64,000 nucleotides of DNA from an uncultured Anaerolineae bacterium (GTDB taxonomy: Bacteria > Chloroflexota > Anaerolineae > JACIWP01). The notes under the pieces were generated by a model, which worked only from the letters and a program-made list of their open reading frames with translations, was not told the DNA's origin and did no database searches. The stretch covers positions 64,427 to 128,426 of the forward strand of contig CALIBQ010000025.1 in the NCBI GenBank assembly GCA_938049385.1. Reading direction: 5' to 3'. Below, piece after piece: positions 42,803-49,120 of this stretch. The first letter of the stretch is position 1. Each line of letters opens with the position of its first letter. The position numbers and the translations under genes are program-made.

Positions 42803-43766
42803 GCTCACGACCTCGGAAGTAGTCTATGACGCTCTGCAGGGTCTCATCCAGGCTGTAGCGCGGACGGTATCCCAGCAGTCGCTCGATCTTTGAAATGTCG
42901 GGCACACGCCGCTGGAAATCCTCGAACCCCTCTTCATAGGCCTGCTCGTACGGGACAAAGACGATTTCAGACGGGCTGTCGGCCAGCGTTTTGACCCGCT
43001 GGGCCAGCGCCAGGATGGTGATCTCTTCGGTGCTTCCCACGTTGAAGACCTGCCCCACCGCCGCCGGCGCCTCGGCCAGCCCGATGATGGCGCGCACCGC
43101 ATCGCGCACATCCAAGAAACAGCGCGTTTGCCGGCCGTCCCCGTAAACGGTGATGGGGGCCCCGCGCAGGGCCTGCCGCACGAAGCGCGGCACCACCATG
43201 CCGTAGCGCCCTGTCTGGCGCGGCCCAATGGTGTTGAACAGACGGAAAATCACGATGGGCAGGCGGTGCTGTTTATGATAGGCCAGCGCCAGGAACTCAT
43301 CCATGGCCTTGGAACAGGCGTAGCTCCAGCGGCTGCGCGTGGTGGGCCCCAGCAGACGGTCATCGTCCTCCCGAAATGGGACCTGCACCCCTTTGCCGTA
43401 CACCTCAGAGGTCGAGGCCAACAGCACCTTACAGCGGTAGCGGTTGGCCAGGCGCAGGACCATGGCGGATCCGTAGACATTCGTCTCGATGACCTGCACC
43501 GGCCGGCTGACCACCAACTGCACCCCCACCGCCGCCGCCAGATGAAAGATGACATCGCACTCGCTCACCAACCGGTCCATGACGGTTTCGTTGGTGATGG
43601 TCTCGATGGCGAAGCGGAAGGAAGGGTGGCCGACCAGGTGGGCGATATTCTCGAAGCGGCCGGTGGAGAGGTCGTCTATGATGGTGACCTGATGACCCTG
43701 CGCCAGCAGGGCTTCTGCGAGATGACTGCCGATGAAGCCGGCACCGCCGGTGATAAGCGCGCGCAA
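42771..43766 (-). CDS. NAD-dependent sugar-nucleotide epimerase/dehydratase
   Basis: A 331-residue extended short-chain dehydrogenase. The Rossmann motif GGAGFIGSHLAEAL (7-20), DDLSTG and the catalytic Ser plus YACSK (Tyr-x-x-x-Lys, about 151-155) are present. A substrate loop with NTIGPRQTGRYGMVVPRF and the RCFLDVRDAVRA region follow. It resembles UDP-glucuronate decarboxylases or UDP-glucose 4-epimerases but is not the galE-like gene at 48045. It likely makes a surface-polysaccharide precursor. Operon neighbours are ptb (18 bp upstream) and the SMR gene (32-bp overlap). Confidence 0.88.
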   Translation of the reverse strand: MRALITGGAGFIGSHLAEALLAQGHQVTIIDDLSTGRFENIAHLVGHPSFRFAIETITNETVMDRLVSECDVIFHLAAAVGVQLVVSRPVQVIETNVYGSAMVLRLANRYRCKVLLASTSEVYGKGVQVPFREDDDRLLGPTTRSRWSYACSKAMDEFLALAYHKQHRLPIVIFRLFNTIGPRQTGRYGMVVPRFVRQALRGAPITVYGDGRQTRCFLDVRDAVRAIIGLAEAPAAVGQVFNVGSTEEITILALAQRVKTLADSPSEIVFVPYEQAYEEGFEDFQRRVPDISKIERLLGYRPRYSLDETLQSVIDYFRGREHDQDNTADPV

Positions 43767-43784
43767 CTCCCGCTGTGCCCCCTG

Positions 43785-44708
43785 TCAGGATGAATGCCGG
43801 CGCTGATGCTGGACGATGATGGCGGCCATCGCCAGGGAGAGGAAGCGCGTTTCCGCCGTGTCCGCCCGGGAGCTGATCAGGATGGGCACGCGCGCGCCGA
43901 CGACCAAGCCGGCCATCCTGCCCTGGCCGAAATATTGGATGGATTTGGCCATGATATTGCCTGAGACTACATCGGGCACGATGAGGATATCAGCGCGGCC
44001 GGCCACCGGGCCAGAGACGTTCTTGACGCGGGCCGAGTGGGGCGAGATAGCCACGTCCAGGGACATGGGACCGTCCACCACCGCGCCCTCGACCCATCCG
44101 TCGCGGGCCATGCGGCTGAGGGCCAGGCTTTCAATGGAAACTGGCAGGCTGGGGTCCACATCCTCAGTGGCGGAGAGGATGGCAACCTTGGGACGTTCCA
44201 GCCCGAAACAGTGGGCCACATCCACCGCGTTCTGGATGATCTCCACCTTCTGGTAGATGTCCGGGCGCACCACGACGCCGCTGTCGCTGATATAAATCAG
44301 GCGGTCCATGCGGGGAATCTCGAAGATGCCGACATGGGAAAGGAGCCGGCGCTCGCGGATGCCGCCCTCGCGGCGCAGTGCCGCGCTCAGCAGTTCATCG
44401 GTCTTGATGTTCCCCTTGACGATGACGTCGGCGCGCGCTTGGGCGGCCAGGCTGACCACATCGAAAACCGCCCGTTTAGGCTCCGGCTCGTTCAGCACCG
44501 TGATGCCGGCCAGGTTCAGGCCGTTCTCCTCCGAGATCTGGTAGATGAGCCGCTCATCCCCTACCAAGGTCACTTCCGCCACGCCCATCTGATGGGCCTG
44601 GACGGATGCCTGGAGGACCTCCTTATGGGCCGCCGCCGCCACCGCCGCGCGCACCGGACCGCCCTTTTGCGCCTGCTCAACCATTTGCGCGAATGTGGAG
44701 ATGATCAT
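43785..44708 (-). CDS. ptb: Phosphate butyryltransferase/acetyltransferase family protein
   Basis: A 307-residue Pta/Ptb-family enzyme that exchanges CoA and phosphate on short acyl groups. Family features are AAVAAAAHKEVLQASVQA at the start, ADVIVKGNIKTDELL, SHVGIFEIPRMDRLIYISDSG, and a C-terminal GRADILIVPDVVSGNIMAKSIQYF. Butyryl or acetyl specificity cannot be told, and no butyrate kinase is in the window. It is the first gene of the operon running to the amidase and has a clear promoter. It could link acyl-CoA to energy conservation in fermentation. Confidence 0.9.
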   Translation of the reverse strand: MIISTFAQMVEQAQKGGPVRAAVAAAAHKEVLQASVQAHQMGVAEVTLVGDERLIYQISEENGLNLAGITVLNEPEPKRAVFDVVSLAAQARADVIVKGNIKTDELLSAALRREGGIRERRLLSHVGIFEIPRMDRLIYISDSGVVVRPDIYQKVEIIQNAVDVAHCFGLERPKVAILSATEDVDPSLPVSIESLALSRMARDGWVEGAVVDGPMSLDVAISPHSARVKNVSGPVAGRADILIVPDVVSGNIMAKSIQYFGQGRMAGLVVGARVPILISSRADTAETRFLSLAMAAIIVQHQRRHSS

Positions 44709-44777
44709 ATCCCAGCCCCCTCAGCGAACCATTGACACGGGTATGCACAAGGCCATCCGGCTTCTCGACACCCCATG

Positions 44778-44806
44778 TTTATAACACATCTGCACTGCTG
44801 GGTCAA
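44778..44806 (-). promoter_or_regulatory. SigA-type promoter of the ptb operon
   Basis: On the minus strand TTGACC (44801-44806), 17 bp, TATAAA (44778-44783). Its -35 box lies 14 bp from the repeat element starting at 44821. Confidence 0.82.
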
Positions 44807-44820
44807 AGAAATGGTGATAA

Positions 44821-45001
44821 GGGTATCGAAAGAGTCCAAACATACAATCTGGTGAAAGAGCGGCCTGGCGGCGGAAGTCACAGCAACAATTGCGAAGCCT
44901 GCGTAGGCTTCGCGGAGTCGGCGCAGGCCCGCAGTTTCAACTGTCAGGCAATGCGCCAATACCCGCAAATCGAATGATAATCTTGACCTTTTTCAACACC
45001 C
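44821..45001 (-). mobile_element. MITE-like inverted-repeat element, copy 2 (inverted)
   Basis: Relative to the copy at 47502 this one is inverted. It begins at 44821 with GGGTATCGAAAGAGTCCAAA, a diverged form of the complete copy's right end, and finishes with CTTTTTCAACACCC (44988-45001). The body holds GCGGCCTGGCGGC, GAAGCCTGCGTAGGCTTCGC and CAGTTTCAACTG. It is non-coding and lies between the ptb promoter and the end of the FtsZ-like gene. Confidence 0.78.
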
Positions 45002-45044
45002 ACTGGTGATGAAGGTATCGAAAAAGCACTGCTGGCATATCGTT

Positions 45045-46352
45045 TCAAGGTTCCAGCGCATCCCCGGTCAGGAAAGACGGAATGGTGAAAGCATCCTCCG
45101 CTGTGCGCGGCGCCGGCGCCTCCGCTATCCCCACGAATGCCGCCCACAGCGGCGCTTCCAATTCAGCGGATGTCCAGGCGCCGATGGCAAAGGAGGCCGC
45201 CGGCGCCAGCAAACCCTCCATCACGGAGGTCACCTGCTGTACCTCTGCCAGCGTCAGGTCCACCGGCCCCTCCAACAGGCAGAGCGCTCGAGAGAACCGC
45301 CGGCGCAGGCCGCGCCGCTCCCCGATGTCCCGCAGTCGCGCGCAAACCTCCTGCGCCCGCTGGGCGCCGGCGCTTTCGGCGAAGAGCAGTTCGGACGCGC
45401 TGGCCGCGTCCAGGATGGCGCGCAGGCCGGCCAGGTCCAGGGGGAATACTCCGTATCCGAGCACCGAGGCCGCCAGGCCGGCCGCCAGCCGCGCCATGCG
45501 CTCCTCCATACGGCGCAGGCTCTCTGCGGCGGTGAGGGACACGCTTTCCCCCAGGAGCATGTCATTCGGGAGCGCCAGCACACAGTGCGCTGTTTGCTGG
45601 AGGCCGGCCAATCCTTCTTCCGCCAGCAGGCGCCGGCGCTGTCCCTCGAAGCGGAAGGGCAGGGTCACGATCCCGATGGTCAGGGCGCCGGCTTCCCGCG
45701 CCAGGCCAGCCAGGTAAGGAGCCAGCGCGGTGCCTGTCCCTCCGCCCAGGCCGGCCAGCAGGATGAGCATATCCGCGCCGGCCACCGCGCCGGCAAGGAT
45801 CTCGTGGCAAGAGGCGGCGATGCGTCGGCCCAACAACACATCGCCCCCCAAGCCATAGCCCTCCGTCCATTCGGTGCCCAGCACCAGATGATGGTCGGCT
45901 TCGGCGGTCAGCACCTCGTGGACATTGGTGCCGGCGGCGATCAGCTCCGCCGGTAGGGCGAAGCGCCGGCGCACCTGCGTCAGGACGCGTGAGCCTGTCC
46001 CGCCCAAGCTAATAATGCGCACGCGGGGCGCCACCAGCGCCGGGTCGAGGGGAGAAGAAAGGCCGGCCAGGTGGGTGAAAGGCGCCAGGCTCTGTGCCAG
46101 CCAGGCGCGGGCACCCGGCACCAAGCGGTAGCGAAGGGTAGGGGCACCTCGGCGTGCCGGCCGGCCCTCCTCCGGCTCGGCTTCAATCCATCCGAGGCGT
46201 TTGAGGCGCGTGATCTCCGTGCGGACGCTGGGTTCGCGCAGGCCGGTGCGCTGGACCAGCTCCGCCACCGTAAAATGAGGGAGCTGGAGGATTTCCTGCC
46301 GAACGCGCAGGCGGACCTGTCCTCGCTGGGCCATCGGTATCATCCCGGTCAT
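45045..46352 (-). CDS. FtsZ-like GTPase fused to an N-terminal winged-helix DNA-binding domain
   Basis: A 435-residue fusion. Residues about 12-80 form a winged helix-turn-helix (RQEILQLPHFTVAELVQRTG, PSVRTEITRLKRLGWIEA). Residues about 110-330 match the FtsZ/tubulin GTP-binding fold: SLGGTGSRVL (T1), GTNVHEVL (T2), GYGLGGDVLLGR (T3), AGLGGGTGTALAP (T4, 200-212), TLPFRFEG (T5) and PNDMLL (T6). In the T7 loop the FtsZ pattern NxDxxD is P304-L-D306-L-A-G309, so one catalytic Asp and the Asn are lost. It is unlikely to be the division FtsZ. A DNA-bound or regulatory polymer is possible. It lies 35 bp after manA, with its own candidate promoter. Confidence 0.9.
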   Translation of the reverse strand: MTGMIPMAQRGQVRLRVRQEILQLPHFTVAELVQRTGLREPSVRTEITRLKRLGWIEAEPEEGRPARRGAPTLRYRLVPGARAWLAQSLAPFTHLAGLSSPLDPALVAPRVRIISLGGTGSRVLTQVRRRFALPAELIAAGTNVHEVLTAEADHHLVLGTEWTEGYGLGGDVLLGRRIAASCHEILAGAVAGADMLILLAGLGGGTGTALAPYLAGLAREAGALTIGIVTLPFRFEGQRRRLLAEEGLAGLQQTAHCVLALPNDMLLGESVSLTAAESLRRMEERMARLAAGLAASVLGYGVFPLDLAGLRAILDAASASELLFAESAGAQRAQEVCARLRDIGERRGLRRRFSRALCLLEGPVDLTLAEVQQVTSVMEGLLAPAASFAIGAWTSAELEAPLWAAFVGIAEAPAPRTAEDAFTIPSFLTGDALEP

Positions 46353-46366
46353 TGCCAGATGGCCTC

Positions 46367-46395
46367 ATCATAATACACGCCGGCGCATCAGGCAA
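46367..46395 (-). promoter_or_regulatory. Candidate promoter of the winged-helix-FtsZ gene
   Basis: On the minus strand TTGCCT (46390-46395), 17 bp, TATGAT (46367-46372). The -35 box overlaps the end of manA. The start would be near 46360, giving a very short leader to ATG 46352, or about 26 nt to the in-frame ATG 46334. Confidence 0.6.
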
Positions 46396-47410
46396 GCGCT
46401 GGCGCTGGCACATAGGTCCGCAGGAAGGCCGAGGGGCTGGAGGCTGTCCAGCAGTATGTGCCCAGGCACGCCGGCAGGAGGACAAACCGCACGCCGGCAA
46501 ACTCCAACCGTCCGCCGGCCCATTCCAGCGCGGCGCTCCCGTGCAGGATGCCCCAGATTTCAAACGTTTCACCACTGCATACGCCCTGCCGCCTCGCGCC
46601 GGCGTCCAGCTCCCAACGCTCGGTCGCGAAATAGGCGGACTGTCCCAGCAGTTCCCCGCGCGCCCCCGGCGGGGCCGGCAGAGGCGCTGGCTGTGCCGGC
46701 CCCGGCCTCACGAAGCCGAAATCCACCACCTCCAGCGCCTTTTCGATGTGCAGCGGGCGCGGCCGGCCGTCCGGCCCCAGACGGTCCCAATCGTAGACGC
46801 GGTAGGTGAGGTCGGAGGTCTGCTGTATCTCCACCACCAGCACGCCGCCCAGCAGGGCATGCACGGCGCCGGCCGGCACCAACACCGCATCTCCCGTCCG
46901 CACCGGCAGAAAGTGCAGGCATTCCTCCAGCCGGCCTTCGGCGAGAGCGCGGCGGAACCGCTCCCGATCCACCCCGGGCTGGAGGCCGTAGATGATGTGG
47001 GCATCTGGTTCCGCGTGCAGGAAGTACCACATTTCGGTCTTGCCCCATTCGCCGGCCTCGTGCTGGGCGGCATAGCCGTCGGGAGGGTGCACCTGCACGC
47101 TGAGCCGGTCAGCGGCATCCAGGAGCTTGATGAGCAGGGGAAAGCGCCCTCGGGCCAGGGCATCCTCACAACGCCGGCCGACCAGTTCCTCGCCGTACGC
47201 CTGCATGATTGCAGTGAGGGGCAGGCCTTCCAGGGGGCCGGCGTCCACACGCGTGGGGGAATCGGGATGGCCGCTGATTTCCCAGCTCTCCGCCACGGGC
47301 ACAGCCGGCGGCAGACTGCGGCCCAATCGTTCCAGACCGCGTCCGCCCCACAGATAATGGCGATATTCGGGCTGAAAGGTCAACGGATATAACGCTGTTC
47401 GCCGATTCAT
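46388..47410 (-). CDS. manA: Class I mannose-6-phosphate isomerase
   Basis: A 340-residue zinc cupin enzyme interconverting mannose 6-phosphate and fructose 6-phosphate. The zinc and active-site motifs are SVQVHPPDGYA, GKTEMWYFL, VPAGAVHAL and EIQQTSDLTYRVYDWDR. The start follows GGAGAGAGG. It supplies GDP-mannose precursors or channels mannose into glycolysis. It sits upstream of the winged-helix-FtsZ gene, 35 bp away; the metabolic link between them is unclear. A weak candidate promoter (TTGGCT, 17 bp, TAGATT on the minus strand) lies upstream. Confidence 0.94.
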   Translation of the reverse strand: MNRRTALYPLTFQPEYRHYLWGGRGLERLGRSLPPAVPVAESWEISGHPDSPTRVDAGPLEGLPLTAIMQAYGEELVGRRCEDALARGRFPLLIKLLDAADRLSVQVHPPDGYAAQHEAGEWGKTEMWYFLHAEPDAHIIYGLQPGVDRERFRRALAEGRLEECLHFLPVRTGDAVLVPAGAVHALLGGVLVVEIQQTSDLTYRVYDWDRLGPDGRPRPLHIEKALEVVDFGFVRPGPAQPAPLPAPPGARGELLGQSAYFATERWELDAGARRQGVCSGETFEIWGILHGSAALEWAGGRLEFAGVRFVLLPACLGTYCWTASSPSAFLRTYVPAPALA

Positions 47411-47501
47411 GCGCCTCTCTCCGTTTGCCGCACATGCAATCTATCACGAGGTCGCTTGGGAGCCAAATTTGGGCCGGCGGAGGGGCAAATGGAATATCCT
47501 G

Positions 47502-47662
47502 GAGGGTGTTGAAAAAGCCTGGCAGTTGAAACTGCGGCTGTGTTTGCGGAGTCGGCGCAAGCCGACTCCGCAAAGCCTGCGCAGGCTTCCAGTTGCTACC
47601 GTGGCTTCAGCCACCAGGCCGCTTTTCCACAGATTGCATGTTTGGACTTTTTCAACACCCTC
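47502..47662 (+). mobile_element. MITE-like element with perfect 16-bp terminal inverted repeats, copy 3 (complete)
   Basis: GAGGGTGTTGAAAAAG (47502-47517) is the exact inverse of CTTTTTCAACACCCTC (47647-47662). Between them are nested palindromes: GCCTGGCAG with CCACCAGGC, AGTCGGCGCAAGCCGACT, and AAGCCTGCGCAGGCTT. It is 161 bp with no ORF. No clear target duplication is seen. Related copies lie at 39952 and 44821, and degraded ones at about 52455 and 60028. Confidence 0.85.
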
Positions 47663-47673
47663 ATTCTGGCCGT

Positions 47674-47701
47674 TTGACACCCGTCCCCTCCGATGTATAC
47701 T
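47674..47701 (+). promoter_or_regulatory. SigA-type promoter of the CooT-like gene
   Basis: TTGACA (47674-47679), 16 bp, TATACT (47696-47701). It begins 11 bp after the terminal repeat of the MITE-like element. Confidence 0.82.
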
Positions 47702-47753
47702 TTTCGGCGTATCCCACACAAGGGGGACCAAACCAAGGAGGCCGTGTGCCCGT

Positions 47754-47966
47754 ATGTGTCAGGCGAAAGTCTTTCTGGATGCGCCAAAAGATGAGAACCT
47801 GGTGATGGAGGATGTGGCGCGAATCTTTCGTGAGGCCGGCAATGACGCTCACGCCGAAGTGCTGGTGCTGGTGAACCTGTTCGGCGAGGAGAAGCGGATC
47901 GAGGGCCGCATCGCCAGCATTGACCTTCTGCGGCATCATGTGGTCATCGAACGAGAGGAACCTTGA
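47754..47966 (+). CDS. CooT-like small nickel-binding protein
   Basis: A 70-residue protein beginning MCQAKVFLDAP. In CooT, a nickel-binding accessory protein for carbon monoxide dehydrogenase maturation, Cys2 directly after the initiator Met binds nickel, and that Cys is present here. The rest fits the small beta-barrel family (VLVLVNLFGEEKRIEGRIASIDLLRHHVVIE). ATG 47754 is the only start preserving MC. CooC at 57519 strengthens the CODH link, although the CODH genes themselves are outside the window. A perfect terminator follows. Confidence 0.85.
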   Translation: MCQAKVFLDAPKDENLVMEDVARIFREAGNDAHAEVLVLVNLFGEEKRIEGRIASIDLLRHHVVIEREEP

Positions 47967-47990
47967 GCCTACCGCGGCTTGAGGCCGACA

Positions 47991-48028
47991 GGGCAGGAAC
48001 GGATATCCTGTTCCTGCCCCGGTTTTCC
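47991..48028 (+). terminator. Intrinsic terminator after the CooT-like gene
   Basis: GGGCAGGAAC (47991-48000) and GTTCCTGCCC (48010-48019) form a perfect 10-bp stem with a 9-nt loop, followed by CGGTTTTCC. The convergent galE gene ends at 48045 and may share it. Confidence 0.85.
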
Positions 48029-48044
48029 CTGGCGCAGTAAGCCT

Positions 48045-49028
48045 TCAGCGGTCGCCGTAGCCCTGGGGATGCCGGCGGTGCCACTCCCAGGCGCTGGCGA
48101 CGATATCTTCCAGTGAGGTCCAGCGCGGTCGCCATCCCAGTTCGCGCTGAATCTTGGCCGAGCTGGCGATCAGCACCGGCGGATCACCTGGCCGGCGCGG
48201 TGCTTCCACCGCTGGGATGGGATGGCCGGTCACCTTGCGGCAGACCTCGATTACCTCACGCACGGAGAACCCCCGCCCGTTCCCCAGGTTGTAGATAAGC
48301 CGTTCGTGCTGGTCGAGCGCCTGCAGGGCCAGCACATGGGCGGAAGCCAGGTCATCCACGTGGATGTAATCCCGCACACAGGTGCCATCGGGTGTGGGGT
48401 AATCGGTGCCGAAGATGGCGATGTGCGGGCGCTGGCCGAGCGCCACCTGGAGGGTCAGCGGGATGAGGTGTGTCTCGGGATGGTGGTCCTCGCCCCGTTC
48501 CGGCCGGCCGCCGGCGGCGTTGAAATAGCGCAGGGCGGCGTAGCGCAGGCCGTGGAGGCGCCCGTACCATTCCAGCATGCGCTCCACCATAAGCTTGGAC
48601 TCCCCATACACATTCACCGGGTGCAGAGGGGCATCCTCGGTGATGGGAATTTCCTCCGCAATGCCGTAGACGGCGGCGGTCGAGGAGAAGACCAAGCGCT
48701 GGACGCCGGCACTCACACAGGCCTCCAGCAGGTTCAGCGTCCCACAGACATTGTTGCGGAAATAGCGTCCCGGCTCTTTCATAGACTCGCCGGCCTCGAT
48801 GAAGGCGGCGAAGTCCATTACTGCTTCTATCTGAAAGCGCCGTAGGACATCCTCTATTTGCTCGCGATGCGCCAGGTCTCCCTGCACGAACTCTGCCCCG
48901 GCCGGCACTGCGGCGCGGTGGCCCTTTACGAGCGAGTCGAAAACTACCACCTCATGGCCGGCATCCAGCAGGCACTGCGCGGTCGCACTGCCAATATAGC
49001 CGGCGCCTCCGACAACCAGCACACGCAT
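48045..49028 (-). CDS. galE: UDP-glucose 4-epimerase
   Basis: A 327-residue enzyme interconverting UDP-glucose and UDP-galactose. The NAD motif is GGAGYIGSATAQCL (7-20). Also present are DSLVKGH, SSTAAVYG, the catalytic YGESK (Tyr-x-x-x-Lys, about 146-150), RYFNAAG, the FGTDYPTPDGTCVRDYIHVDDL signature and a C-terminal ELGWRPRW. It provides galactose for glycolipids or wall polymers. It is monocistronic and convergent with the CooT-like gene. GGAGGTG precedes the ATG. Confidence 0.95.
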   Translation of the reverse strand: MRVLVVGGAGYIGSATAQCLLDAGHEVVVFDSLVKGHRAAVPAGAEFVQGDLAHREQIEDVLRRFQIEAVMDFAAFIEAGESMKEPGRYFRNNVCGTLNLLEACVSAGVQRLVFSSTAAVYGIAEEIPITEDAPLHPVNVYGESKLMVERMLEWYGRLHGLRYAALRYFNAAGGRPERGEDHHPETHLIPLTLQVALGQRPHIAIFGTDYPTPDGTCVRDYIHVDDLASAHVLALQALDQHERLIYNLGNGRGFSVREVIEVCRKVTGHPIPAVEAPRRPGDPPVLIASSAKIQRELGWRPRWTSLEDIVASAWEWHRRHPQGYGDR

Positions 49029-49120
49029 CGTATGCTCACCTCCGTTGCAAGGATGAATGGGCGTCAGGAGCTGTCATGATTCAGCAGGGCGGAAAATAAG
49101 GGGCAACCTATCTCGGCCGA

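Follow-up and report, generated by a model that had tools for sequence, protein, structure and literature searches.

What does a cell do with a protein that carries a DNA-binding fold at one end and a cytoskeletal GTPase at the other? Within a 64,000-nucleotide stretch of DNA from an uncultured Anaerolineae bacterium (the window), one gene encodes such a protein, which a sequence-only reading had described as an FtsZ-like GTPase fused to a winged helix-turn-helix (wHTH). We compared the gene in its source genome (G000) with its counterparts in two related species of the same GTDB order (G001 and G002).

Reading frame and domains of the fusion protein

Counted from its first ATG, the open reading frame has 435 codons with no break in frame (Table 1). 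Both nearest relatives lack this ATG, and the only start codons they offer correspond to Met4 and Met7. Translation therefore probably begins at Met4 (46343), giving a protein of 432 residues. The fused gene was found in all three of the genomes of this order that were examined, 84% identical and in the same gene order. The fusion is a genuine gene rather than an artefact of assembly. Three independent assemblies agree in the fused frame and in gene order, on separate contigs, which rules out the sequencing error joining two genes that the sequence-only reading had considered.

Table 1. Features of the fusion gene and its surroundings, with positions in the window
Feature	Position	Strand	Basis
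manA, type I mannose-6-phosphate isomerase; upstream neighbour, 35 bp from fusion gene	46388..47410	(-), same strand	Pfam PF20511; gene order conserved
Sigma-70-like promoter TTGCCT-17-TATGAT, between manA stop and fusion gene, overlapping manA stop codon	46367..46395	(-)	consensus scan; block conserved in 3/3 species
wHTH-FtsZ fusion gene	45045..46352	(-)	intact ORF; fused orthologues in G001 and G002, 84% identity
Winged helix-turn-helix, residues 7-77 (recognition helix 40-52, wing 56-77)	46122..46334	(-)	MarR_2/PaaX profile matches; AlphaFold model; PDB fold matches AspA/PadR/MarR
Connector helix, residues 81-95	46068..46112	(-)	secondary structure; full-length model
FtsZ GTP-binding domain with H7, residues 109-300; T1, T2, H7 changed, T3-T6 kept	45453..46028	(-)	Pfam PF00091; alignment to 41 other Anaerolineae FtsZ proteins
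T4 glycine loop GGGTGT, residues 203-208	45729..45746	(-)	invariant in 3/3 orthologues
T7 loop GVFPLDLAGL (301-310); P304 in place of N, D306 retained, G309 (S in G002) in place of second D	45423..45452	(-)	alignment
FtsZ C-terminal domain, residues 301-409, fast evolving	45126..45452	(-)	model; 70% identity, omega 0.32 vs 98%, 0.03 in canonical FtsZ
Remnant FtsZ C-terminal peptide DAFTIPSFLTG (420-430), linker almost gone	45063..45095	(-)	tail compared with canonical DDLDIPAFLRRR
Phosphate acetyl/butyryltransferase family gene; downstream neighbour	43785..44708	(-)	Pfam PF01515; gene order conserved

The winged helix, earlier placed at residues 12-80, was recovered at residues 7-77 by profiles, AlphaFold models and PDB fold matches. 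Profile support was modest but consistent: MarR_2 matched at 3.5e-5 on the whole protein and 6e-6 on the isolated domain, where its score of 26.8 lay just under the Pfam cut-off of 27 bits, and PaaX matched at 8.7e-5. The order of secondary-structure elements (H7-23, H29-36, H40-52, E56-60, E73-77) is that of a winged-helix fold (H1-H2-H3-wing), and this fold was obtained whether the protein was modelled at full length or as the isolated domain, the latter with block-mean pLDDT values of 91-95 over residues 11-60. Its best PDB matches were the DNA-binding proteins AspA (centromere-binding), PadR and MarR, which were tied (VIA Z 10-11); TubR was absent among the fold matches listed. The domain is basic (16 R/K versus 8 E), and the arginines and lysines of the recognition helix (R39, R44, R49, K51, R52) and of the wing (R64, R67, R68, R74, R76) are all invariant across the three orthologues. 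Judged by these features, the N-terminal winged helix would bind DNA, although some winged helices bind proteins or RNA instead.

The FtsZ fold, with its GGGTGT at 203-208 and its T3, T5 and T6 motifs, was likewise borne out by Pfam Tubulin (PF00091; 1.6e-26, above cut-off), by structure matches and by alignment. The NCBIfam ftsZ profile TIGR00065 matched at 1.4e-44, but its 152.8 bits fall below the equivalog cut-off of 295.2. Solved FtsZ structures were matched down to 5.9e-37 (M. jannaschii FtsZ), and a full-length AlphaFold model (mean pLDDT 86.8, pTM 0.76) gave target-normalised TM scores mostly of 0.8-0.93 against FtsZ crystal structures in Foldseek. The protein is thus a MarR/PadR-type winged helix (7-77) joined to a complete FtsZ fold (109-409).

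Residue changes and selection in the FtsZ part

Residue changes were called against an alignment with 41 other Anaerolineae FtsZ sequences. T7 was altered as described in the sequence-only reading (P304, D306, G309): the family NxDxxD reads PxDxxG in G000 and G001 and PxDxxS in G002, so that the asparagine and the second aspartate are missing in all three species and only the middle D306 is retained. Further changes, beyond those noted earlier, affect T1, where GGGGSN has become GGTGSR, GGTGTH and GGIGAR in the three orthologues (N to R/H), T2 (NTD to GTN), the H7 pair (ADD to MEE) and the C-terminal peptide, which is a degenerate IPSFL. The loops T3 (GLGGD), T4 (GGGTGT), T5 (PFxFEGxRR) and T6 (PND) are kept, and these phosphate-side loops show almost no change in any of the three species, each of which has an altered T7 and H7. 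The nucleotide loops vary less than the remainder of the GTPase domain, a difference that is not significant (Fisher p = 0.67).

In Escherichia coli, the D212G change at the last T7 position lowers GTPase activity almost tenfold in a chimeric FtsZ-YFP-mts, and D212G is cited at less than 1% of wild-type GTPase, with static rings (PMC7320174). Since the fusion protein's T7 is without two of the three catalytic-loop residues, the behaviour of D212G makes it a sound inference that GTP hydrolysis would have been lost. The FtsZ part may plausibly bind nucleotide, but this is uncertain given the further changes in T1, T2 and H7 and the differences in T1 between species.

The fusion protein ends about 25 residues past the FtsZ fold. 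Compared with the canonical tail DDLDIPAFLRRR, its DAFTIPSFLTG has lost the arginines and almost all of the linker; the core of the peptide (IPSFL or IPFFL) is kept without the arginine that follows it in the family form, D/E-I-P-x-F-L-R.

Selection has acted unevenly along the protein. Between G000 and G001/G002, overall omega was about 0.20 at a dS of about 0.5. The wHTH was the most constrained part (94-96% identity, omega 0.03-0.05); in the domain-by-domain comparison it stood at 96% and 0.04, followed by the GTPase domain (86%, omega 0.19) and the C-terminal domain (Table 1). In the same genomes, the two domains of canonical FtsZ were 97% and 98% identical, with omega of 0.05 and 0.03, so that the GTPase and C-terminal domains of the fusion have about 4 and 12 times the omega of their canonical counterparts. 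The winged helix is thus under constraint as tight as that on a division protein, and constraint on the FtsZ part is looser. The sequence-only reading had allowed that the winged helix might be a chance helical segment absent in homologues; this does not hold, since every homologue of the order has it and no other part of them is better conserved. Within the FtsZ part, constraint is weakest in the domain bearing the T7 side of the filament contact; this C-terminal domain is free to vary, unlike that of a self-polymerising FtsZ. The proposal of a DNA-bound switch or filament with weak hydrolysis divides along this line: a switch is reasonable given the damaged catalytic loop, and a filament is less likely, since the C-terminal domain with the T7 side of the contact evolves fastest.

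The divergent catalytic residues and the faster evolution of the FtsZ part could also be what is left of a decaying duplicate, or of an assembly error joining two genes. We consider this very improbable, because the frame is intact in three species at a dS of about 0.5, with omega at 0.20 overall and far lower in the wHTH, and because gene order is identical on separate contigs, an assembly error having already been refuted.

Gene neighbourhood, promoter and repeats

Gene order around the fusion gene is conserved over at least 13 kb in the three genomes and takes in galE, cooT, manA, the phosphate acyltransferase gene, a sugar epimerase gene and others. No division genes adjoin the fusion gene. 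A 38-base block that starts at the manA stop codon shows two differences between G000 and G002, species between which about a third of synonymous sites have changed. With such conservation, the fusion gene is likely to have a promoter of its own downstream of manA.

The sequence-only reading had proposed looking near manA for a repeat array or an operator. No tubC-like or iteron tandem array was found in 43500-49100, nor were there iteron-like close direct repeats near the gene in G001 or G002, and no operator for the fusion protein was identified. Within the promoter spacer, the GCGCCGGCG dyad was considered as an operator and rejected as too common: the window contains 56 copies of this 9-mer, an overrepresented palindrome-based motif, where dinucleotide-preserving shuffles predict 6.4. 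These results bear on the notion that DNA binding and GTPase functions are combined here as in TubZRC, the FtsZ part polymerising and carrying the bound DNA along. The same two functions do sit on one chain, and the centromere-binding AspA is among the best fold matches of the wHTH, tied with PadR and MarR. The sequence supports a DNA-binding-type fold joined to an FtsZ GTPase but gives no support to a TubZRC-like module: the GTPase is bacterial FtsZ rather than TubZ, the gene is chromosomal with conserved gene order and no tandem, iteron or tubC array, T7 is damaged and the C-terminal domain is unconstrained. We consider a single-chain DNA mover very unlikely.

An intergenic element of about 150 bp lies at 44812-44970 and again at 47517-47664, and is present in at least 40 copies in the genome. 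The copy upstream of manA has the ends GTGTTGAAAAAG...CTTTTTCAACAC. Its absence from the manA-upstream site in G001 and G002 makes it look like a recently mobile, MITE-like repeat; that absence and the copy number ruled out the flanking inverted repeats as the ends of a cassette. Also upstream of manA is a small divergent CooT-family gene (PF10133; 47757-47966, (+) strand) with a near-perfect sigma-70 promoter (TTGACA-16-TATACT at 47674-47701).

Other FtsZ copies, possible function and known systems

A canonical ftsZ, its identity backed by a Pfam match, is present in the same genome (G000:C36). It follows genes that we take, by sequence recognition, to be murC, murB, ddl, ftsQ and ftsA (the dcw cluster), and the fusion gene lies outside this cluster. 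With a canonical ftsZ next to ftsA, division does not need the fusion copy. SepF was not found in the G000 genome. In the G001 assembly (92% complete) we found the fusion and no canonical ftsZ, probably because of missing sequence.

Second FtsZ copies are frequent in Anaerolineae, with 24 of 100 surveyed genomes of the class having one (counted from the match table), so extra FtsZ proteins with other jobs are common in the class. The wHTH was absent from the 20 extra second-FtsZ loci that we fetched (L034-L053), and no gene neighbourhood common to these copies and the fusion was found. Several encode a divergent second FtsZ without a wHTH (L034-L038, L040, L043, L046, L047). T7 reads NLNLMH and T6 reads SND in L037 and L043, and the last T7 aspartate is S or H in L038 and L040; catalytic-loop damage may therefore have arisen repeatedly among FtsZ copies. 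Three more divergent FtsZ-like proteins of other Anaerolineae (L051, L052, L053) align to the query over only part of the GTPase and C-terminal domains. In a tree of FtsZ sequences, the fusion trio sat on a very long branch, and we claim no placement for its FtsZ part.

That about a quarter of the surveyed genomes carry a second FtsZ lacking a wHTH, some with an altered T7, would suit an additional FtsZ for division or cell shape, its winged helix serving for protein-protein contact or dimerisation and not as a DNA reader. The invariant basic residues of recognition helix and wing, the DNA binders that are the fold neighbours of the wHTH and the lost constraint of the FtsZ part all argue the other way, and we regard this explanation as improbable.

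Beyond the trio, scans of 396 class and 400 phylum genomes, in which the best few candidates per genome were scored, returned no close homologue; the nearest relative outside the trio scored E 1e-45, the level of an ordinary FtsZ, and no other wHTH-FtsZ appeared in these Chloroflexota genomes. A wHTH-only profile run on 298 class genomes found ordinary regulators only. Viral contigs gave no matches, plasmid and phage records gave ordinary FtsZ-like matches (none with wHTH coverage among the matches listed), and defence-system libraries gave no match. We found no description of an FtsZ-wHTH fusion in the open-access literature. No family named in the searched profile libraries or open-access papers has this architecture, which is a new combination of known domains; within the scope of Chloroflexota genomes and open-access papers, this agrees with the earlier statement that no such family had been described.

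We favour, with a probability of roughly 0.45, the reading that this divergent FtsZ paralogue is a DNA-bound regulator whose FtsZ-derived part is a nucleotide switch or a contact domain; we infer its DNA binding, nucleotide binding, sensed signal and target genes. This reading is favoured because the wHTH has a DNA-binding fold with invariant basic residues and is constrained like canonical FtsZ, because T3-T6 are kept while T7 and H7 are altered and the C-terminal domain is free, and because a canonical ftsZ is present and a conserved promoter lies upstream. The N-terminal winged helix would bind DNA, the gene's own conserved promoter, overlapping the end of manA, being the obvious first candidate target. 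The FtsZ-derived domain would bind guanine nucleotide slowly or loosely and, if the residues lost act as in D212G, hardly hydrolyse it. A nucleotide-dependent contact between FtsZ domains could then change DNA occupancy; alternatively, the contact might be made by the remaining top face and the IPxFL tail with canonical FtsZ or with proteins that partner it. A slow or non-hydrolysing switch, or an FtsZ contact, is most likely when set against a self-treadmilling filament.

Several points speak against a regulator: no operator was identified, winged helices may bind proteins or RNA, the nucleotide loops are not significantly less variable than the remainder of the GTPase domain, T1 differs between species, which makes nucleotide binding uncertain, and the persistence of IPxFL is a hint of a role like that of FtsZ, together with division partners. 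The closest rival to the regulator reading, which we think somewhat unlikely, is a nucleoid-occlusion-like division regulator whose wHTH sits on the chromosome while its FtsZ-like domain binds, caps or poisons canonical FtsZ filaments near DNA, in the manner of SlmA, whose fold is unrelated. It would account for the retained FtsZ fold and top-face loops T3-T6, for a damaged T7 that could block subunit addition and for the remnant C-terminal peptide, and the genome has canonical FtsZ and FtsA for it to act on. It fits poorly with the omega of the GTPase and C-terminal domains, about 4 and 12 times that of canonical FtsZ, which did not co-diverge, and with a gene that adjoins no division genes. 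Unlikely too is that the protein is the first of its kind, a single-chain DNA-binding FtsZ that reads chromosomal DNA and directly joins or caps the cell's FtsZ filaments; if true, no adaptor would be needed to connect the Z ring with gene control or with nucleoid position.

The strongly conserved DNA-binding domain at the front end of a second FtsZ suggests that one small lineage of uncultured Chloroflexota has turned a partly disabled copy of a cytoskeletal GTPase into a DNA-bound regulator. Members of the FtsZ superfamily are known for forming filaments; the fusion would be a case of the tubulin/FtsZ fold being put to new use as a regulator or DNA-bound switch, a DNA-binding domain having been gained and kept under tight selection while the hydrolysis loop was left to decay. 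It also offers a compact system for asking whether a single chain can connect DNA with FtsZ.

Among known systems, bacterial FtsZ (TIGR00065) shares with the fusion the full GTPase and C-terminal fold, T3-T6 and a trace of the C-terminal peptide; the fusion differs in its N-terminal winged helix, its changed T1, T2, H7 and T7, its almost absent linker, its score of half the family cut-off and its place outside the dcw cluster. With MarR, PadR and ArsR factors and pNOB8 AspA it has in common a winged-helix fold with a basic recognition helix and wing (Z 10-11), but here the partner domain is an FtsZ fold and not a ligand pocket or dimer helices. TubZRC, the partition system of plasmids and phages and an analogy only, also combines a tubulin-superfamily GTPase with a winged-helix DNA-binding protein, although as two genes with a tubC array, whereas the fusion is one chromosomal chain with FtsZ in place of TubZ and no array seen; the phage tubulin PhuZ matched the fusion protein at only 0.0096. 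SlmA, of TetR-type fold, and Noc, of ParB-type fold, may be functional parallels as DNA-bound controls of FtsZ, but they have different folds and no FtsZ domain of their own. A further possible parallel is the read-out of guanine nucleotide by a wHTH regulator in GTP-sensing regulators of the CodY type, CodY using a GAF domain and not an FtsZ fold. FtsZl1 and FtsZl2 are likewise extra FtsZ-superfamily proteins besides canonical FtsZ; they are described with a C-terminal coiled coil, or a unique C-terminal region or extension of about 300 residues, and with no mention of an HTH (PMC2875224), whereas the fusion has neither coiled coil nor such an extension and is closer to true FtsZ.
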